A stretch of 64,000 nucleotides of DNA. Source: Roseibium algicola (GTDB taxonomy: Bacteria; Pseudomonadota; Alphaproteobacteria; Rhizobiales; Stappiaceae). Position numbers and translations under genes: made by a program. The stretch covers positions 3,377,001 through 3,441,000 of the forward strand of contig NZ_CP019630.1 in assembly GCF_001999245.1 (NCBI RefSeq). Direction: 5' to 3'. This document shows, one piece after another, positions 1,069-17,365 of this stretch (its first letter is position 1; the number at the start of each line of letters is the position of its first letter). The notes beneath the pieces are model-generated. The model saw only the letters and a program-made list of their open reading frames with translations. It was not told the origin of the DNA and did not search any database.

Positions 1069-1357
1069 ACGGGTTTCGGCGTCAGGACGAGTGGAATGAG
1101 GACGATACCTGTTGCTTTGCTGCGAGCACAGGACCGTCCTTTTCAGCGTCTGCGGCAGCATCAGGCGGCGTATACTTGTGCGTTTATTTTCAGCTTGAAT
1201 GACGCTATAATTGTGTCCTTGGGTTCCGAAGCCTGGGAGAACGTGCGGTTGGCCGTATTTTGACCGACAAGACGCATATTCTCATCCGACCGTCGGCGGT
1301 TGACTGACGTGCCGGCTCGAAGAGACAGGCTCCATTGTTTTAACGATTCTCGATACG

Positions 1358-3100
1358 GTGTTGGTCATGCCGGTAACCAGTGCAGAGCTGAAGCAGCATC
1401 TGGAGCAGAATGAAGCGGCTGTCGACAGGGTGTTGCGCCGGGTTCAGGGGTTCACGGATTCCCTGATGACGCTGGATGCCTTGCGCAGCACGGCGGGCAT
1501 CACCGGGCAGCCTCTTGAAGAACTGCTGGCTGATTTTCTGAACGAGGAAAATCTCGGCTGGGAGTTCATGTTCCACCTCACCCAACCAATCGAGCCGATC
1601 AACGCCGCCAATTTCGACCTCGAGGATCTCGGTGATTTCGCGCACAAGATGCTGGGCTTCAAGCTGTATGTTTTCGATGAAATAGGATTTTGCGGTATCG
1701 CGACACTCGTGTCTCACCGGCTCGCGCTGACCGCCTGGCATGTGACGGTCAAGGACAAGCGGAAGGAGCGCCGGTCCGGCCTCACGGTTCGCACGCAAGA
1801 AGGGAGCAAGTCGCTGCGCGTGCTTGGTGTGCGTTTCGAGATGCCTTGCCATGACGATCAATGGGATGTCGGCCTGCAGGACGGGGATATCCTGCGTGCC
1901 AACCCGGATGTCGCCTTGCTCGCCATCGAGCAACCGATGACAACGTATTACGAATTGCCGGCGAAACCTCCGGCGTGGATCACCGGGCGGAGAAAGCTTT
2001 GCCTGAGCCACAGACAGGACGACAACGGCAGGGGCGTCACCTTCGTTACCGGTCGTGCGACGATCGATGATCCGCCTCGTATCCAACTGGAATGGGAGGA
2101 CGGTGTCACCAGACCCGGGTCGTCAGGCGGGTCGGTTTTCGACACGGATCTTGCATTCGCCGGTTTCCATCAGGGACAGCTGAATGGTGTGTCCGAGATC
2201 GTTCCTTACGCCACCTTCGCCGGCATAGACGAGTTTACCCAGGCAATTGCGGAGGACCGGGCACCGCCTTACATCTATTCGTTGACGGGGCGTGTCGATG
2301 GTCATCTGATTATTGGGCGGCAACGCTATTGTCATGCCATCCATGACGTTGTGCGGGGAGCCGCCCGTCACTTGCGCGGGATCTGGATCAAGCGGATGGA
2401 GATCGACCAGACGACGGGACTGGAATTTTCCTACGATCTCTTGTGTCAGGTTCTGGCGCAGAACGGTCAAGCGGCGCAGGTGTTCAGGGTTGAACTGTCT
2501 CTGGGAATGGAAGACCTGCTGGAAACGCTGAACGAGAGATTGCATGGCGGAACGCCGCTGCTGGCGCGGCCCGGGGCTGCGGACGACGAAACCAGTGAAG
2601 GGGCGAGCGACAAGGATCGTGCCAGGCAACTGGTGGACCTCCTGGCCAAGACGACCGGCGCGACCGCGGACAGGCCGAGCTGGATCTATTTCGACAATCC
2701 GCGCGGAGGCCTGCGCAAGGCGGCACAACAGCAACTGGAACTGCTTCTGGCAATGATCCTGAGCGATACGCGTCTTCGATTTGTCATGGCCGGGGGCGAG
2801 ACCTACAGCGTTCCGGGGCCAAAGGCGGAAAATGCCAGTGCGCTGACCGGGCCGGGAGTGATGGTGGATTACATCGGCCAGTTCGACCGCGAGGATGTCC
2901 GTCATACGCTTGAGGCGATCAACCGATCGCTGGGGCTTGGCCTGCCGACGCATGTGGTCGATTTCGTTCTGATGCAGGCCCTTCACGGCGTGCAAGCCCA
3001 GGGAACGGTCTATCGCAGTGCGGAAGTGAAAACCGTGTCGGAGAATCTGCAAAGGTCTCTCGCACCGTTGCTTCCGGCCCAAGGAGCATCATCGCCATGA
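1358..3100 (+). CDS. trypsin-like serine protease with C-terminal degenerate STAND-like domain
   Basis: 580 residues, cytosolic (no signal peptide). An N-terminal helical region (about 1-95) is followed by a trypsin-fold domain (about 100-300) with a full triad: His128 in TAWH, Asp184 in NPDVALLAIE and Ser256 in PGSSGGS. Residues about 315-500 look like a nucleotide-binding STAND module that has lost its P-loop: an IIGR motif at 318-321 (compare FFGR in the next gene), a Walker-B-like WIYFDNP at 442-448 and a sensor-like RLRFVMAGG at 472-480, but no GxxxxGK. The start is GTG at 1358; ATG at 1367 is an equally good choice and neither has a strong Shine-Dalgarno sequence. The end overlaps the ATPase start (ATGA), so the two are translationally coupled. 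Role as sensor or effector protease of a conflict-type system is inference. Confidence 0.8.
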   Translation: MLVMPVTSAELKQHLEQNEAAVDRVLRRVQGFTDSLMTLDALRSTAGITGQPLEELLADFLNEENLGWEFMFHLTQPIEPINAANFDLEDLGDFAHKMLGFKLYVFDEIGFCGIATLVSHRLALTAWHVTVKDKRKERRSGLTVRTQEGSKSLRVLGVRFEMPCHDDQWDVGLQDGDILRANPDVALLAIEQPMTTYYELPAKPPAWITGRRKLCLSHRQDDNGRGVTFVTGRATIDDPPRIQLEWEDGVTRPGSSGGSVFDTDLAFAGFHQGQLNGVSEIVPYATFAGIDEFTQAIAEDRAPPYIYSLTGRVDGHLIIGRQRYCHAIHDVVRGAARHLRGIWIKRMEIDQTTGLEFSYDLLCQVLAQNGQAAQVFRVELSLGMEDLLETLNERLHGGTPLLARPGAADDETSEGASDKDRARQLVDLLAKTTGATADRPSWIYFDNPRGGLRKAAQQQLELLLAMILSDTRLRFVMAGGETYSVPGPKAENASALTGPGVMVDYIGQFDREDVRHTLEAINRSLGLGLPTHVVDFVLMQALHGVQAQGTVYRSAEVKTVSENLQRSLAPLLPAQGASSP

Positions 3101-6100
3101 GCAAGGACGGTGATCAGCTCGCGGAAGGCCTGAAGGCGGCCATGCGGTTTGCCGCAACGCGCAAAACCTTCACGCCGCGTGATGCGGTGGAGGCAGCTTC
3201 CAAGGTCTTGCAGGACAAGCTGACGCCATTGACGATTGCCCGGTTGCTGACGGAGCTCAACAAGGTCGTCCTGGAAATTTCCTCCGAGCCCGTCTGGTCA
3301 CTTCGCAACGGGCCGCGCCATGGTGTGCTCAAGACCATCGAAACACCGGAGGAAGACACACCTGTTGCCAGAGCCCTGCGTGGGGAGGAACCGTTCTCGC
3401 AGGAGACCATCGAACGACTGATTGCGGAGACACCGGATCTGCCCGAGCAGGATCAGCTCAAACGGATCGAAGAGATATCCGATGACCTCGACAGGGCCGG
3501 ACCGAGTGCGCCTGCCTATCCGTTGCTGGTGCGCCTGCGCGGAGTGATGAACCGCGTGGATGCCGCAAGGCGGGCCAATGCCATGCTGAGCCGGGAGTTT
3601 TTTGGCCGGGAGAAGGAACTGGCCCGCTTGCTCGACTGGTGCGCGCGGCCCCAGGAAAAAACACCTGTCAGCGCCTTGTTCATCACCGGCCTGCCGGGCA
3701 TCGGCAAATCCTTTCTGATTGACCGGGCAATGGCGGAATACAGGTCTGTTCAAAAGGCGCCAATCGTTCTGCGCCTGGACTTCGACCGGCGCGGGCTGAA
3801 CCTGGAAGATCCCGACAAGCTGGTGCATGAGCTCTCCCGCCAACTGGGCGATATCCTGACAGACGAAGCCCCCAGACTGCGCGATCTGAGGCTCAAGTAT
3901 TCCGGCAATGCGGAAACGACCGGCACGACGGTGAGCAGTACCCTTTTGCCGACCGAGCTGGTCGATGCCATGGGCGCTGCGGTGCGGTCGCATGGCGGGC
4001 AGGTGGTCCTGGTGCTGGATACGCTTGAAGTGTTGCGCGGTCATGGCGAAACCCGGCCCATTCTGCTGTTCGAGGTTCTGGACAATCTGGTGCGGGCCGG
4101 GCTGTCGCCGATCTCGATCATTGCGGCCGGACGGGGAGATGCGCTCGATTCCGTCCGCAAACGCATCGAGGGACCGCCTCTGGAGCTGGAAGGCCTGAGC
4201 GAGACGGAATCCCGCAATCTTCTGGACAAGTTGGGGGCTCCGCCGGATTTGCATGACAGGATCTTCGAACTTTCGCGTGGCAACCCGCTGATGCTGCGGC
4301 TTTCAGCCAAGGTAACGCAGGCGGAGGACTTCGATCCGGGCGAACTGGAATACGGCGAAGCAGGCAGCATCACGGAAGCCTATCTTTACCGGGCTATCCT
4401 TTCGCGCATTGACGACCCGCTGCTGGCGAAGCTGGCACACCCTGGTCTTGTCCTGCGCCGGATCAGCGCCGAGGCAATCCAGTTCGTTCTGGCGCCGGCG
4501 CTCGGGCTCGGTGAGCATATCGACGAAGCTGCGTCCAGGCGACTTTGGCAGGAACTCAGCAACCACCATTGGCTGGTGGCCGTTGACGGTCAGGACTGGC
4601 TGAAACACCGCAGCGACCTGCGGCGGGAAATCCTGCCTATGCTCTACGTCGAAAAGCCGGAGCTGGCCGCAAGAATAGACCGGGCGGCGGCGAACTGGTT
4701 CGCCGGGTTTGACCGTGAGACCGCGCTCTATCATGCCTTCCAGGCGACGCGGGCCGGAGACCCGATGCCCGAATTCACCGCAGCCGACGTTGCGGGCCTC
4801 AGCGAAGATGAACTGGACGAACTTCCTCTTCCGGCGACGAACGCCATTCTGCAGGAGCGCGGCGAGCGCTCACGCCGGGCGCGCTACACCAGCAGCGAGC
4901 AGGGAACATCCGAACCGGTTCCGACTTCGAAAGCGGAGGAGGTCGAGCCGGAACTGGTCCGCGAACTCGAACTGACCCTTCGGCGGGGCGATGTGTTCGA
5001 GGCCGATCATATCTTCACCCTCAACAACGCCTTTCCGCGAAATCCCTCACCTTCCCGTCCCGAGGCCGCGGCAACGCTTGCCTATTTCTGGCTCTCCGGC
5101 CAGTGGGCGCGGGCCATGTCCCTTTGGCGGAAGCTGCCGAAATCCTTGCTGGAACGATTGAGCCGGGAAGACCCGGGCCTCTACGGGCTGGTCCTGCTGG
5201 AAATCGAGGCGGAAGCGGATTTCGACGGACTTGTCGCCCGGTTGCGGGGTGATGAAAAACTGGCGGCAACAGCCTGGCAGGCGCGTTCCGAGGGTTCCAG
5301 GATTGCCCTGAAGGGGGCGCTGGAATTCGCTCTCATGGCCAGCCAGGAAGGGCGGCCGGAGTATGTGGAGATCCTGGATCCGGTTGCCATGTCCGTCTTC
5401 AGGTTCGGCGAGAGAGTTTCGGAGTACCCGGCTGACGCAATCCGGCAGGGTGCCAACCGCGCCGAGCGGTTTGCGATCATGACCGGACAGCAGCATCCCG
5501 ACACGGATCAGCACACCATTGCCCGAATGAACCCTGCGATCGCGCCCTTGAGCGTTCTTGCACGCATTCAGCACAGTCCGCGCATGGCGCAATATCTGCG
5601 CGGCTTTTACGAGGGGTTGCATGAAACGCTGGAGATGCTGGGAACGCCTGATCTCTTCGACAGTTTCGAACGCTATTCCAGCGACATCGAGATCGAAGGA
5701 CCGGAAATTCTGGGGGCACTGGGCCTTACCTGCGACTGGGTAGGGGCATTTGCAGTGTTCAATGCTGTTCCGGATGCGCCGACGGTTGCGCGGGCGGCCG
5801 AACGGTGGCGGCGCTTCAGTGGCGGTATCTGGTCCTACCCGGGTACGCCGCCGTCTTACTGGGGCAACGGCGAGAGCGATGTCTTGCTGATGGCGCGGGT
5901 CAACAGTCTGCTTTCGCGGAAGGATCCGCCGGCAACCGCCCGTGCGCTGTTGCGGCGATTGGCCTATGCGGCCGACTATCCCGACACGGAAGAAGGGGCC
6001 CGGCGTGCCCGGAGTGTTTTCGAGCGACGGCTGATGCGGCCTCTGGCAATGGCGATGACCGCGGGCTCTGCCCAGGACATTGCAGCTGCCCTTGCACCCA

Positions 6101-6195
6101 GGCTCATGGGGCCAGCCCTGACAGCGGCGTTGGCCGTGATCGGGGCTGATGCTGCGAAAAGAAACGAACCGGTCGACGCGTCGACATTGTTCTAG
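3097..6195 (+). CDS. large STAND-family NTPase (ATPase)
   Basis: 1032 residues, cytosolic. A helical N-terminal region (about 1-160) leads into an FFGREKEL motif (168-175), the usual entry to STAND/AAA signalling ATPases. The Walker A motif GLPGIGKS is at 198-205 and the Walker B stretch VVLVLDTLEVL at about 303-313. A winged-helix-like region follows, and the remaining 500 residues are alpha-helical and repeat-like (TPR-type solenoid suspected, not proven). STAND proteins act as switches that bind a ligand through the solenoid, hydrolyse ATP and oligomerise to activate an effector. No effector domain is fused here, so the coupled protease just upstream or the protease-nuclease downstream is the likely partner (inference). 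The ATGA overlap with the upstream gene fixes the start. Confidence 0.85.
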   Translation: MSKDGDQLAEGLKAAMRFAATRKTFTPRDAVEAASKVLQDKLTPLTIARLLTELNKVVLEISSEPVWSLRNGPRHGVLKTIETPEEDTPVARALRGEEPFSQETIERLIAETPDLPEQDQLKRIEEISDDLDRAGPSAPAYPLLVRLRGVMNRVDAARRANAMLSREFFGREKELARLLDWCARPQEKTPVSALFITGLPGIGKSFLIDRAMAEYRSVQKAPIVLRLDFDRRGLNLEDPDKLVHELSRQLGDILTDEAPRLRDLRLKYSGNAETTGTTVSSTLLPTELVDAMGAAVRSHGGQVVLVLDTLEVLRGHGETRPILLFEVLDNLVRAGLSPISIIAAGRGDALDSVRKRIEGPPLELEGLSETESRNLLDKLGAPPDLHDRIFELSRGNPLMLRLSAKVTQAEDFDPGELEYGEAGSITEAYLYRAILSRIDDPLLAKLAHPGLVLRRISAEAIQFVLAPALGLGEHIDEAASRRLWQELSNHHWLVAVDGQDWLKHRSDLRREILPMLYVEKPELAARIDRAAANWFAGFDRETALYHAFQATRAGDPMPEFTAADVAGLSEDELDELPLPATNAILQERGERSRRARYTSSEQGTSEPVPTSKAEEVEPELVRELELTLRRGDVFEADHIFTLNNAFPRNPSPSRPEAAATLAYFWLSGQWARAMSLWRKLPKSLLERLSREDPGLYGLVLLEIEAEADFDGLVARLRGDEKLAATAWQARSEGSRIALKGALEFALMASQEGRPEYVEILDPVAMSVFRFGERVSEYPADAIRQGANRAERFAIMTGQQHPDTDQHTIARMNPAIAPLSVLARIQHSPRMAQYLRGFYEGLHETLEMLGTPDLFDSFERYSSDIEIEGPEILGALGLTCDWVGAFAVFNAVPDAPTVARAAERWRRFSGGIWSYPGTPPSYWGNGESDVLLMARVNSLLSRKDPPATARALLRRLAYAADYPDTEEGARRARSVFERRLMRPLAMAMTAGSAQDIAAALAPRLMGPALTAALAVIGADAAKRNEPVDASTLF

Positions 6196-6351
6196 TCGCG
6201 TGCGTTTGCAGGTTCGTCAAACACGAAAGAAAGGAGAGAACCGGGCACTGTTCAGGTTCCGTGTTTCCGGCAAGGCCGCAAGCCTCGTCGATGCCCGAAC
6301 CTATGGGGAATACCGGACAATAATACAGACATTGATATTGGAGGAATTTCC

Positions 6352-8325
6352 ATGAACACGCGAGCATTATTGGAAAGTCAGGGACGGCTCGAAGCATTGA
6401 AATCGGGCGGACGGCTTGAGGCTGCGAAACGCGCCATCGAGGCAGGACACCCCTTTGTTGAGCAACTTGGACTGGACATACCGGATACGCTTGATGCGCT
6501 GGATATGTCCCTCGGCCAGCTTGAAGCCGCCGGCACGCCGTTGACGCAACTGGAAGCCATCGTGCGACTGGTTACCCGGCCGCCGATGGTTGTTGAAAAC
6601 GGCGCGGTCTCGCTGATCCCGCTGCCGGATGAGTTCGGTGCCGACATAGACATCAAGATCAAGCGGAACGAACACTGGATCGGCTCGATCGGGCGGGTTG
6701 AATTCATCAACCACTCGATGACCTGGGGCGGAACCGCCTGGGTGGTTGGAGAAGAAGCCGATGGCCGGCATCTTCTGGTCGTGACCAACCGGCACGTGGC
6801 CAAGATTGTCGCACGCCGAAACGCCAGGGGAGAGGGTGTCTTCATGCGCTCGCCCTTCACGATGGTCCGTTACGGTGCGCGCGTGGATTTCAACGAAGAG
6901 GTTGGCGCGTTGCCGTCAGACGAGCGCCCGGTCGAGATCCTTCGCTTCACCTATCTTGCAGATGATGCCAGCGCCGATGTCGCGATCGGGCGGATCGAAA
7001 AACCTGCCGGCTTCGCCGTGGCGCCCTTGCCTCTGGTGGATACGGACGCGGAAACGGACGAGATCGTTGCGGTGATCGGCTATCCGGCCTTCGACAGCCG
7101 AAACGACCGCACCGAAATGGAGAAGTATTTCAAGGGCCTCTACGATGTGAAGCGGTTTGCTCCGGGCAAGATGATGCCGGTTGAGCCGGGAACCGTGCTC
7201 AGCCACGACTGCACCACGCTCGGTGGAAACTCCGGCTCACCGATCCTGAGCCTTGATCGCAACAAGGTGGTTGGGTTGCACTTCGCCGGAGCCTATGGAA
7301 TTGCCAACAGCGCTGTCAGGGCGAGCACATTGCGGGATCTTCTGTCAGGCAACCGGCCCACGCAGGTTCTGGTCGAGGCTAGCCTTGAACAGGAGGTGGC
7401 CGACGGTTTCCACGACCCGAACCATTTTATCGGCCGGAACGGCTACGATCCCAACTTCCTGTCGAAAAAGGTCGACTTTCCGAAGTTGCCGGACGGCATG
7501 TTCAATCTGGCCAGCCCGACGGATGCGCTCGCCGGCCGTCCGCATGAGCTGCGCTATACCCACTTCGGGCTTCTCTATGATGTCGATCGCAGAAGCCCCG
7601 TGGTTACTGTCGTCAACATCGACGGCGAAAAGGCAATCAAGATCAAACGCAAGAAACCGGACAAGTGGTTTTTCGATCGGCGCATTCCTGTGGAAGCACA
7701 ACTCGGCAAAGGCGACTTCCCGGGAGATCTGGACCGGGGACACATGGTCCGGCGCGAGGACCCGAACTGGGGCGATGACCGCCCGGTGGCGCAACTGGCA
7801 AACGACGATACGTTCCACTACACGAACGCCTCGCCGCAGCATTCCTCCCTCAACCAGAACCGGTCCACCTGGCAAGGTCTGGAAAACCATATCCTCGACA
7901 GCACAAAGACCCATGCCTTCCGGGCAACGGTCTTCACAGGCCCCCTTTTCGACGACGACGAGGATCCGTTCCTCGATGGGGTCGGCATCAATCTGCCCCT
8001 GCAGTACTGGAAAGTGGTGGTGATGGATGCCTTGCAGGACGACGGCAGTCTTCGCCTGCACGCGACCGCCTATCTGTTAAGCCAGGGACAGGCCATTCAG
8101 AAATACCTGCAGGACCGCCGCGAGTCGGAAGCTGTCGAAGGGTTCGCCTTTGGTGAGTACAAGACGTTCCAGGTGTCGGTTGCCTTTCTGGAAGACCTGT
8201 CGGGCTTCGATTTCGGACCGTTGAGGGATGCAGACCCGCTGGCGGCGCTTGCAGACGAGCTTGAGCTGCCCGACAGCCGACCGCAGTTTGTCGAGATCAC
8301 GGGAGCAGATTCTCTGGTCCTGTGA
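6352..8325 (+). CDS. trypsin-like protease fused to DNA/RNA non-specific endonuclease
   Basis: 657 residues, no signal peptide. After a helical N-terminus (about 1-100) comes a trypsin-fold domain (about 108-335) with His148 in TNRHVA, Asp209 in SADVAIG and Ser294 in GGNSGSP. A second domain (about 395-620) is a NUC1-type endonuclease with the DRGH motif at 461-464 (His464 the expected general base) and the metal-binding asparagine region TNASPQ then LNQN. Both active sites look intact. Members of the nuclease family cut DNA and RNA without sequence specificity using Mg2+. The start has a strong GGAGG six bases upstream. It lies 156 bases after the ATPase on the same strand and is probably part of the same module, with its own ribosome site. 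Whether the protease domain restrains or releases the nuclease is unknown. Confidence 0.88.
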   Translation: MNTRALLESQGRLEALKSGGRLEAAKRAIEAGHPFVEQLGLDIPDTLDALDMSLGQLEAAGTPLTQLEAIVRLVTRPPMVVENGAVSLIPLPDEFGADIDIKIKRNEHWIGSIGRVEFINHSMTWGGTAWVVGEEADGRHLLVVTNRHVAKIVARRNARGEGVFMRSPFTMVRYGARVDFNEEVGALPSDERPVEILRFTYLADDASADVAIGRIEKPAGFAVAPLPLVDTDAETDEIVAVIGYPAFDSRNDRTEMEKYFKGLYDVKRFAPGKMMPVEPGTVLSHDCTTLGGNSGSPILSLDRNKVVGLHFAGAYGIANSAVRASTLRDLLSGNRPTQVLVEASLEQEVADGFHDPNHFIGRNGYDPNFLSKKVDFPKLPDGMFNLASPTDALAGRPHELRYTHFGLLYDVDRRSPVVTVVNIDGEKAIKIKRKKPDKWFFDRRIPVEAQLGKGDFPGDLDRGHMVRREDPNWGDDRPVAQLANDDTFHYTNASPQHSSLNQNRSTWQGLENHILDSTKTHAFRATVFTGPLFDDDEDPFLDGVGINLPLQYWKVVVMDALQDDGSLRLHATAYLLSQGQAIQKYLQDRRESEAVEGFAFGEYKTFQVSVAFLEDLSGFDFGPLRDADPLAALADELELPDSRPQFVEITGADSLVL

Positions 8326-8399
8326 GGAAATGTGAGCCTGCTGTGCGCGTGAGATGACCAATCGGTCCGAGCATCCGTCTCGGCAGGTCCCTGCCGTTG

Positions 8400-8434
8400 C
8401 TCCGGTCTTTGCCTTTATCGGCAGGGCCGGAGTG
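8400..8434. repeat. imperfect inverted repeat between convergent genes
   Basis: Arms around CTCCGG...TTGCC and GGCAG...CCGGAG form an imperfect hairpin in the 141-base gap between the protease-nuclease gene and the convergent ogt gene. No clear T-tract follows on either strand, so a terminator role is only possible. Confidence 0.3.
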
Positions 8435-8466
8435 GCAGGTGTTTGATATCGACGACTTGAGTTGCG

Positions 8467-8922
8467 CTAGACCAGGAACGGGTAGCCACCCTCCAGTTTC
8501 AGAAGGGCGATCTTTGTTTCCGTACCGCCCGAGCCGGAATATCCGCCAAGGCCGTTTGCCGACAGGATCCGGTGGCAGGGGATGATGATCGGTATCGGGT
8601 TGGCGCCGCAGGCCTGGCCGATCGGCTGTCCGTATGTGTCCAGTTCCCTGGCAAGGTCGCCATAGGTGCGGGTTCCGCCATAGGGGATTGCGAGCATCGC
8701 CTTGAACACCGCCTGGTGCAGCTCGCCGCCTTTCGGGGCGAGCGGCAGGTCGAAGGTTTTCAGATCACCCGCAAGATAGGCCTGTACCTGGCGTGCCGCT
8801 TCCTTGAGCAACGGTGTTTCTTCTTTGCCAGAGGGCCCGTTCCAGTGTAATTGGGTGATTGCGCCGTCAACTTCCGTAATGGAAAGGCGTCCCAGCCATG
8901 TTTCAATTTCTGCAACCGGCAT
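8467..8922 (-). CDS. ogt: methylated-DNA--protein-cysteine S-methyltransferase
   Basis: 151 residues, the usual length for the short Ogt form. It transfers the methyl group from O6-methylguanine (and O4-methylthymine) to its own cysteine in a one-time suicide reaction, repairing alkylated DNA. The active-site motif PCHRIL is clear, with Cys116, preceded by the conserved GANPIPIIIP stretch and followed by the GLGGYSGG-like glycine segment. The helix-turn-helix YGGTRTYGDLA that inserts into the minor groove is also present. ATG at 8922 fits the family start. It is divergent from the transporter at 9055 and appears monocistronic. Confidence 0.95.
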   Translation of the reverse strand: MPVAEIETWLGRLSITEVDGAITQLHWNGPSGKEETPLLKEAARQVQAYLAGDLKTFDLPLAPKGGELHQAVFKAMLAIPYGGTRTYGDLARELDTYGQPIGQACGANPIPIIIPCHRILSANGLGGYSGSGGTETKIALLKLEGGYPFLV

Positions 8923-15181: not shown

Positions 15182-17365
15182 TCAGAGGGCCGGAGCGTGT
15201 TCCGGATTCGAACTCTTGTGGGCAACGCATTTGTTGCGGCCCGTCGCCTTTGCCTCATAAAGCGCCGTGTCGGCCTTTTGCATGAGGGTCGAAAATTCCA
15301 GATCTTCGCGAGCGACGGTGGCAAGGCCCATGCTGCAGGTGACCGTCTGTTTGACGATGTCGAGCTGGCATTCCTCGATAATCTTCACCCGCAGGCGTTC
15401 ACACACCAGCATGGCATCTTCGATTTCGGCGTTGTGCAGGATCATGCAGAACTCTTCGCCGCCGACCCGGCCGAAGATGTCGACAGCACGCAGGGCGCTG
15501 CTGACGGTATCGGAAAATTTTTTCAAAACCTCGTCGCCGGTGGCATGGCCGTACAGATCGTTGATCTGCTTGAACTTGTCGATGTCCATCATCACAGCCG
15601 TGAAGGGGCGTTTTGTGCGGCGGAAGCGCTGCACTTCTGTATTGGCCCGTTCCAGGAAAGCGCGGCGGTTCAGGATCTGGGTCAGGTCGTCGATGCTGGC
15701 GACCCGCTCCAGGTTGATCTTGGCGTTCATCAGGGCCTGGTGATCGCGCTGGCGGGCGATCTCATGTCCGACCCAGTCCGCGAACTGACGCACGATCTGA
15801 AGATCCGACGGGGAAAATGCCCTTTTGCGCACGTCCGGGGCGGTGAAGTTGATTGTCCCATGAACTTCACCATCCACGAGAATCGGGGCGCCGATATACG
15901 TCTCCAACTTGAAGATCTCGTGGCAGGGATGCCTGGCGAACTCCGAGCTCGCGGCATTTGCGGTCGCGATCGGCTCTTCGGACCTCAGCGTCAACAGACA
16001 ATAGGTGTCCTGCAACGGGAACGAAGTGCCCGGAACGAGTTCTCCTTCCGGGCTCTGGGCGTGTGTGATCGTGTAGTGGTCGTCAATCACGTGACTGATA
16101 ATGCCAAAGGGAACCTCGAAATGTTCGGTCCCCAGACGCAGGATTTCGGCAATCTTGTCTTCGTGGCCGAGCTCGCGGGTCGAAGTGATGGCATAAAGTT
16201 CGGCCAACGTACGTTCCGTTTTCTTCCGGTCGGTTATATCGGATATCAGAACCACGATAGCTTCAACGGCACCATCATCGCCGAAGCGCGGGTTACAGCT
16301 CATCAGGCATTCGCGCAAAATGCCGTCGGGAAAATGGAAGCTGACTTCCGATGAAACCTTCTCACCGCTCATCGCTTCCTCGAAGATCGTGCGAACGGCT
16401 TCGCGTTCCTTCCAGGGCAAGCGGTCACGAAGCCGGGTGCCGATGAGAGTTTCCGGTTTTTCGTTGAACCAGTCACACGCGGTCTTGTTGATGAAGACGC
16501 ATCTGCCCTCCAGATCGACCTCGGTGACGCTGGCGACAATGTTGTCGGCCATGAGCGAAAGGTTCTTGTAAGCGTTTTCCGCCTTGGCCTGAGCGTGTTT
16601 GAGTTCCGTGATGTCGAACCGGATGCCGGCGATGCCGCCGGCGCGGGTGCGGGTTTCCGAAATGCGCAGCCAGCGGCCGTCACTGAGGTTTTGCTCCAGG
16701 ATCGAGCCATCGCCGGCCTGATGCCGATCGAGGCGCTCCGCCAACCATTCGTCGTCCGTCTTGCCGCCCGTCTCGTATTGCTTGCGGTTTAGGCCGAACC
16801 GCAGGATGTCCTCGAAACGATTGCCGGGGAACATGGCCGGTGCCGAATGGGCATAGATCTCGCGATAATTGTCGTTGCAGATAACCAGCCGGTCATCCTT
16901 GTCGTAGAGTGCGAAGCCTTCCGAAATCGCGTCCAGAGCATCTTCAAGCGTCAAGGCGATGTCGCTCAGTTTGCTTTCCAGCGCCTTTCGTTCCGCCTGA
17001 TCCCGCGCGATAAACAGGATGCCGGTCAATGTGTGATCTGTATCGAACAGCGGTGCGCTGACAACCTCGACGGATACGGTCGACCCGTCTTCGAGTGCCA
17101 GATCGATTGAATAGGCCTTGCGGTTCCGGTGATCCGTTGGCGATTGGTAGAGTTCCGCCATCTGGGCGAACTGGTTCGGATCGGCGAAGAACCGTTTCGT
17201 TGTCGTGCCGACGACCTTTTCGCGATCCACCTTCAGCAGTTTGGACATAGCCTTGTTTACGAAAACGATGGTGCGTTCGGGGTTGGTCACGAGGACACAT
17301 TCGTTCAAATCGCCGAACGTCTGTTCAAGATCCAAAGTGATGTTCTTGGTCATTTCCGTCCCCAT
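15182..17365 (-). CDS. PAS-PAS-PAS-GAF-GGDEF diguanylate cyclase
   Basis: 727 residues without membrane helices. Three PAS domains (about 15-125, 140-255 and 265-385) are followed by a GAF domain (about 395-540) and a C-terminal GGDEF domain (about 557-715). The catalytic motif is GGEEF at 635-639, and an RAVD product-inhibition site sits five residues upstream (about 626-629), so the enzyme should make cyclic di-GMP and be feedback-inhibited. The GAF segment opening TRELGHEDKIAEILRLG is typical of cyclases that sense small ligands or light. Start is ATG at 17365; the ATG at 17353 is an alternative. The signal sensed by the PAS tandem is unknown. The 139-base upstream region is AT-rich. Confidence 0.92.
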   Translation of the reverse strand: MGTEMTKNITLDLEQTFGDLNECVLVTNPERTIVFVNKAMSKLLKVDREKVVGTTTKRFFADPNQFAQMAELYQSPTDHRNRKAYSIDLALEDGSTVSVEVVSAPLFDTDHTLTGILFIARDQAERKALESKLSDIALTLEDALDAISEGFALYDKDDRLVICNDNYREIYAHSAPAMFPGNRFEDILRFGLNRKQYETGGKTDDEWLAERLDRHQAGDGSILEQNLSDGRWLRISETRTRAGGIAGIRFDITELKHAQAKAENAYKNLSLMADNIVASVTEVDLEGRCVFINKTACDWFNEKPETLIGTRLRDRLPWKEREAVRTIFEEAMSGEKVSSEVSFHFPDGILRECLMSCNPRFGDDGAVEAIVVLISDITDRKKTERTLAELYAITSTRELGHEDKIAEILRLGTEHFEVPFGIISHVIDDHYTITHAQSPEGELVPGTSFPLQDTYCLLTLRSEEPIATANAASSEFARHPCHEIFKLETYIGAPILVDGEVHGTINFTAPDVRKRAFSPSDLQIVRQFADWVGHEIARQRDHQALMNAKINLERVASIDDLTQILNRRAFLERANTEVQRFRRTKRPFTAVMMDIDKFKQINDLYGHATGDEVLKKFSDTVSSALRAVDIFGRVGGEEFCMILHNAEIEDAMLVCERLRVKIIEECQLDIVKQTVTCSMGLATVAREDLEFSTLMQKADTALYEAKATGRNKCVAHKSSNPEHAPAL

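Follow-up and report, generated by a model that had tools for sequence, protein, structure and literature searches.

A LypABC-type protease, STAND ATPase and protease-nuclease operon in Roseibium algicola with abortive infection as its most likely output

This report concerns three genes, here called lypABC, in a 64,000-nucleotide stretch of Roseibium algicola DNA (contig NZ_CP019630.1, positions 3,377,001 to 3,441,000 of the forward strand; this whole stretch is called the window, and coordinates are counted from its first letter). Judged by its predicted products, a trypsin-like protease (LypA), a STAND ATPase (LypB) and a trypsin-like protease fused to a nuclease (LypC), the operon is a LypABC-type module, a combination that has already been published. 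The demonstrated role of LypABC is the release of gene transfer agent (GTA) particles by lysis in Caulobacter crescentus (Banks et al. 2026, PMC13236601). We consider it probable that the window operon is a CARD-NLR-like, STAND-gated suicide module whose output is most likely abortive infection and not particle release; abortive infection is favored in this strain because no GTA marker was found there. The new observations are the lack of GTA markers in lypABC-bearing Roseibium, the conservation of nuclease residues, the variable slot of the operon together with the proximity of CBASS to a plasmid copy, and effector-candidate domains on LypC.

Results

A preliminary description of the window had placed three genes on one strand, the first two overlapping by four bases, and the open reading frames (ORFs) were confirmed as described: lypA and lypB overlap by 4 bp, and 156 bp separate lypB from lypC. 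The first ORF spans 1358-3100 and encodes 580 amino acids when counted from a GTG at 1358; however, the ATG at 1367, which shortens the predicted protein by three residues to 577 and matches the homologues, is more likely to be the start. The main features are as follows; LypA residues are numbered in the 577-residue form, and their codon coordinates were computed arithmetically from 1367.

1367..3100, plus strand: lypA homologue, 577 amino acids; N-terminal helical domain of about 75 residues, trypsin-like protease, and C-terminal domain without a Walker A motif
1367..1600, plus strand: LypA N-terminal helical domain, placed like the CARD-like domain through which C. crescentus LypA binds LypB
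1739..2125, plus strand: predicted LypA catalytic triad, H125 (codon 1739-1741), D181 (codon 1907-1909) and S253 (codon 2123-2125)
3097..6195, plus strand: lypB homologue, 1032 amino acids; STAND ATPase (AAA_16) with a C-terminal extension
3688..4020, plus strand: LypB Walker A motif GLPGIGKS (K204, codon 3706-3708) and Walker B motif (D308, codon 4018-4020)
6352..8325, plus strand: lypC homologue, 657 amino acids; fusion of a trypsin-like protease and a nuclease of the NucA/EndoG type (Endonuclease_NS)
6793..7233, plus strand: predicted LypC protease triad, H148, D209 and S294, the last equivalent to C. crescentus S296
7741..7854, plus strand: predicted LypC nuclease residues H464 and N501, equivalent to C. 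crescentus H471 and N505

The ratios of nonsynonymous to synonymous substitutions (dN/dS) against two relatives were 0.12-0.15 for lypA and 0.08-0.09 for lypB and lypC, values that indicate purifying selection on all three genes. Because dN/dS is low and the A-B-C order recurs elsewhere, this trio of ORFs is not a chance arrangement. The proteins had been said to lack signal peptides; this was examined by a crude hydropathy scan only, which revealed no strongly hydrophobic N-terminus in any of the three.

The domain assignments proposed earlier, a trypsin-like protease, a STAND ATPase and a trypsin-NUC1 fusion with intact catalytic residues, were borne out by Pfam, by alignments and by a structure model of LypA. 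In LypC, Pfam detected Trypsin_2 (3e-14) and Endonuclease_NS (6e-45). The protein is 52% identical to LypC of C. radicis, a species named as a lypABC carrier (PMC13236601), and 53% identical to the Caulobacter vibrioides CB15 protein P0089, which we took to be LypC and which fits the published protein in its length from an internal start (662 amino acids) and in S296, H471 and N505. In LypB, which is 31% identical to its C. radicis counterpart, the Pfam matches were AAA_16 (2.5e-11) and NPHP3_N (5.7e-6); K204 and D308 are conserved in 6/6 LypB proteins, that of the window included, and are invariant in a 20-sequence alignment (A1). The match of LypA to Trypsin_2 was below threshold (E=1.1e-4); however, its protease fold is supported by the structure model (mean predicted local distance difference test score [pLDDT], 64), for which the best Protein Data Bank (PDB) matches were proteases of the HtrA/DegS/elastase type. 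The H/D/S triad of LypA aligns in all six LypA proteins, the window's own among them, including that of C. radicis, to which it is 26% identical. As read from these alignments, the tested catalytic residues of LypA, LypB and LypC are intact.

The two flanking regions of LypA are less clear. A degenerate ATPase domain had been claimed for this protein, and the claim is supported but not proven: we found no Walker A motif, and a profile alignment set the stretch TTGLEFS opposite the P-loop-like GCGKT of a sister protein, in a region where the structure model is weak, but a direct profile comparison of LypA with LypB gave no match. At the N-terminus, the model contains helices at residues 5-14, 16-27, 36-46, 50-60 and 64-72, with pLDDT values of 65-90 by ten-residue block. 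Neither a PDB sequence profile search nor Pfam matched this domain to a CARD. It likewise matched neither Pfam bDLD2 nor, by profile, the bDLD2 of a sister operon described below, although the two may still be related at the level of the fold.

The conservation of LypC was assessed in the best 120 of 3241 matches, a sample in which the cluster of the window protein itself and the partial or damaged proteins P0009 and P0032 are counted and which favors nuclease-bearing proteins, since the query contains the nuclease. Among these 120 homologues, the protease H, D and S were present in 119, 119 and 120, respectively; the nuclease residue H464 was kept in 118 and N501 in 119, and N492 was variable. 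In C. crescentus, H471 and N505 are dispensable for lysis (PMC13236601), which, for lysis in that species, contradicts the earlier proposal that the protease-nuclease is the toxic effector as far as its nuclease is concerned. Because the equivalent residues are strictly kept even though they are dispensable for lysis there, the alignments suggest that the nuclease matters for something outside GTA lysis. This strong conservation of residues that GTA lysis does not need is a puzzle.

The C-terminal part of LypC varies. In the LypC of a Paracoccus sp. MA plasmid (L040:8986-10962), which was counted in addition to the 120, the nuclease H and N are replaced by S and G and the protease triad is intact. 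Some LypC proteins (Methylobacterium and Sinorhizobium) carry a C-terminal lysozyme-fold-like domain that is shared with viral contigs. The family of this domain (L011:11918-12697; IMG/VR loci L089-L168) has members in 153 IMG/VR stretches; those that were scanned gave no Pfam, NCBIfam or PDB-sequence match and one weak PHROG match, and the family is possibly an endolysin family absent from the libraries searched. Others end in an alpha/beta hydrolase, as in a Roseibium metagenome genome. In G018 (L173:5594-9259), a single protein of 1221 residues combines a hydrolase of the alpha/beta type with a trypsin-like protease and a nuclease of the Endonuclease_NS family. The lysozyme-fold-like and alpha/beta hydrolase domains are candidates for the lytic effector of LypABC, and these LypC variants thereby name concrete candidates for the missing effector type. 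Natural single-chain fusions of LypB and LypC also exist (P0132 and P0170). A Ruegeria sp. metagenome protein (P0133, 1508 residues) matches LypB twice in tandem, over residues 18-601 and 591-1461, and probably comprises two STAND ATPase modules.

A scan of genome contigs with LypC gave six loci, five of which have all three genes in A-B-C order: R. aggregatum (L009), Stappia sp. BW2 (L010), Methylobacterium (L011), C. radicis (L012) and Nocardioides (L013). Further complete operons lie on plasmids of Paraburkholderia (L039) and Paracoccus (L040). As the preliminary description proposed, the genes make up a single conserved module; it is one of a class of STAND-gated conflict and suicide systems. 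When the homologues of LypB and LypC were compared (120 each, as listed), their longest contigs were equal in size in 21 instances, which suggests shared contigs. Full-length LypB was found in only 3/151 relatives, all of the same genus (the window's genome, G000, and G002 and G026), with weaker partial matches in G011, G034 and G130; LypC-like matches occurred in 31/151, and 28 of these lacked full-length LypB. Across the class, the estimate is at least 2 of 385. These searches indicate that lypABC is rare and sporadic in distribution and is not housekeeping, the alternative that the preliminary description had named as damaging to its proposal.

Relatives of the operon were seen in other arrangements. 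A sister operon in G011 (L174:5601-15951) encodes a trypsin-NucA-S8 peptidase protein, a 372-residue protein, a bDLD2-trypsin protein (bDLD2, E=3.6e-42) and a STAND protein that is 28% identical to LypB across 377 aligned positions; about 3 kb away are genes that, read by eye, resemble Vsr and DNA C5-methyltransferase genes. G034 likewise has a partial LypB-like match. At L172:7696-11727, a trypsin-nuclease 37-38% identical to LypC adjoins a papain-like (Peptidase_C1) gene, and L170 and L171 look similar by eye.

In the window, the operon occupies the following stretch.

1069..8466, no strand assigned: lypABC-holding stretch, between a cupin gene (730-1068) and ogt (8467-8922, minus strand)

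It forms part of a slot that runs in Roseibium from a MarR-like gene to ogt-EamA-LDtrans and that in the window's genome also holds oxidoreductase and cupin genes, among others. In G038 (L069), homologues of the oxidoreductase (77% identical) and cupin (67%) genes occur together with ogt, EamA and LDtrans. No lyp gene was matched there, and about 24 bp separate the alignment of cupin from that of ogt, so that the oxidoreductase/cupin genes stand directly beside ogt. Seven other genomes that were viewed have other genes, or almost nothing, between the MarR-like gene and ogt. The comparison indicates that lypABC is a variable insert in Roseibium. Read by eye, the slot contents of other strains include chaperonin-, transporter-, histidine-kinase- and carboxypeptidase-like genes. 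Elsewhere in the window, a diguanylate cyclase (GGDEF) with PAS/GAF domains, 726-727 residues long, is encoded at 15182-17365 on the minus strand.

The setting is different on the conjugative symbiosis plasmid of Paraburkholderia phenoliruptrix (L039:1-19875), where a CBASS pair lies about 7 kb downstream of lypABC with insertion sequence elements and transposases between them. Two TcmP genes are found upstream of lypABC on this plasmid.

Markers of GTAs were sought among the relatives. GTA_TIM was found in 107/151 genomes, GTA capsid in 19/45 congeneric genomes (two by weaker matches) and DUF6456 in 17/45 congeneric genomes, and none of the three was found in any of the three lypABC-bearing Roseibium genomes (G000, G002 and G026). 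We take DUF6456 to be a marker for the GafA/GafY activator; among 14 control genomes, it was matched in Caulobacter vibrioides alone. The genome of the window is 99.98% complete. As no capsid, tail or activator marker was found, GTA release appears unlikely in lypABC-bearing Roseibium. The most plausible view is that the LypABC module can serve GTA release but does not do so in the window's strain.

Discussion

We postulate that LypB stays inactive until it is switched by a signal that comes from an invader or from damage, upon which it would assemble and cluster LypA via their N-terminal domains. The clustered LypA protease would then cleave and unleash LypC. The LypC protease may in turn activate either a lytic target or a domain tethered to LypC itself, with the LypC nuclease degrading DNA at the same time. 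A cell infected by a phage or another element would die as a result.

Several observations weigh against this proposal, and they need to be set beside the alternatives. The CARD-like fold of the LypA N-terminus was not confirmed; its assignment draws on where the domain lies and on comparison with the published LypA. The lack of GTA markers in 3/3 lypABC-bearing Roseibium genomes could be due to chance (P about 0.23 if the genomes are independent), and the three are close relatives; therefore, this lack is an existence argument and not a correlation. Furthermore, the Methylobacterium (L011) and C. radicis (L012) genomes, both of which have lypABC, carry GTA_TIM. This last finding, like the homology to a system whose demonstrated role is GTA release (PMC13236601), favors a lysis switch as in C. 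crescentus, in which GTA production triggers LypABC and lysis frees the particles. For the window's strain, this alternative is largely contradicted, and we regard it as very unlikely: neither GTA_TIM nor GTA capsid nor DUF6456 was matched in its genome or in the other two lypABC-bearing Roseibium genomes, and the full operon occurs in the actinobacterium Nocardioides. RcGTA-type agents are not known in that phylum. Even within Caulobacter, complete lypABC is present in just 4 of the 11 species predicted to encode GTAs (PMC13236601).

The genomic setting also bears on the proposal. The preliminary description had looked to enrichment near defense genes. Proximity to such genes was observed for the Paraburkholderia plasmid copy (CBASS) and, by eye, for the sister operon of G011 (Vsr and methyltransferase); the Roseibium slot is not a defense island, and ten further window proteins that were scanned belong to transport, metabolic, signaling or unknown-function families. 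A lysis or programmed death that is linked to prophages or stress, with a developmental or nutrient role and not aimed at invaders, would be in keeping with such surroundings and with the fact that overproduction of lypABC alone lyses and kills C. crescentus cells (PMC13236601). However, the operon is rare and patchy and sits in a variable slot, its plasmid copy lies about 7 kb from CBASS on a conjugative element, and its composition of STAND, death-like, protease and nuclease components is that of described conflict systems (Kaur et al. 2020, PMC7159879). We therefore consider this explanation improbable, although it merits some weight.

It might also be argued that LypC is an independent enzyme and that its position beside lypAB is incidental. 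The Nonomuraea locus (L014) has a match to the nuclease half only, with no LypA or LypB match within about 9-10 kb on either side, and trypsin-nucleases without a listed LypB neighbor occur on a Pseudomonas plasmid (L042), on an S. meliloti plasmid (L041) and in six Roseibium genomes (37-38% identical; contexts viewed in three of the six). Co-occurrence, which had been put forward as a check, held in five of the six LypC loci. The maintenance of A-B-C order across phyla, the existence of LypB-LypC fusions and the need for all three genes in C. crescentus lysis (PMC13236601) make this explanation very unlikely.

Abortive infection therefore remains our preferred reading for the window's strain, and Roseibium genomes that bear lypABC but yielded no GTA marker would offer a natural test of a primarily immune role. 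More tentatively, and as a possibility that we would not favor at present, LypABC may at root be a phage-triggered suicide system with a swappable C-terminal warhead on LypC that is freed by the LypC protease, a system secondarily used for particle release in GTA-bearing Caulobacter. It is equally tentative that the warhead might then take the form of the nuclease alone (window), the nuclease with a lysozyme-fold-like domain (Methylobacterium and Sinorhizobium) or with an alpha/beta hydrolase (the Roseibium metagenome genome), or a nuclease whose catalytic residues are lost (Paracoccus). If this were true, LypC cleavage would activate a hydrolase of the cell wall or membrane, and this hydrolase would be the lytic effector of LypABC in C. 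crescentus.

Comparison with described systems places the operon closest to C. crescentus LypABC. There, LypA joins a CARD-like bundle to a trypsin-like peptidase and to an ATPase domain that lacks Walker motifs; LypB, an ATPase of the CARD-NLR clade, carries TPR-like repeats, and LypC is a trypsin-endonuclease. LypA uses its N-terminal domain to bind the N-terminus of LypB, and lysis needs both peptidases, with LypC S296 essential, as well as the LypB ATPase (PMC13236601). The window operon shares the gene order, domain layout and protein sizes (LypA and LypC have 592 and 662 residues there and 577 and 657 here), the equivalents of S296, H471 and N505, the LypB Walker motifs, the LypA protease and a location outside a defense island. 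It differs in its Roseibium host, in which no GTA markers were found, and in the 156-bp gap before lypC, and its lypA and lypB products have diverged (26% and 31% identical to those of C. radicis).

The CARD-NLR antiphage systems of Lysobacter and Azospirillum (Wein et al. 2025, as described in PMC13236601) likewise combine a protease with an NLR-like ATPase, an N-terminal helical domain and inferred death on activation; unlike them, the window operon has a trypsin-nuclease instead of a gasdermin among its three genes. The nuclease-protease pairs Hachiman, AVAST and canu (Tuck et al. 2025, PMC12799240) follow a similar logic in which a protease activates a nuclease, but there the nuclease is a separately encoded proenzyme of the metallo-beta-lactamase (MBL) fold, whereas here it is of the EndoG type and fused to its own protease. 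AVAST type 1 was rejected as an assignment: PADLOC gave no match for LypA or LypB, and the LypC nuclease is Endonuclease_NS, whereas that of AVAST type 1 is of the MBL type. With LypC, PADLOC matched the protease part only, and by non-Avs models (nacht, 1.6e-9; LmuA, PDC-S45 and PDC-M35A, weaker).

The preliminary description gave no precedent for this exact combination of genes, but it is that of the published LypABC and also fits the mostly alphaproteobacterial NucA-trypsin "System 3" with STAND and death-like components (PMC7159879), for which lysozyme-like and papain-like partners of NucA-trypsin systems had already been noted. As in System 3, NucA (Endonuclease_NS) and trypsin are joined in one protein and accompanied by a STAND protein and by another trypsin that has a domain at its N-terminus; unlike in its bDLD2 subset, Pfam bDLD2 was not detected in LypA, whereas it was detected in the sister operon of G011.

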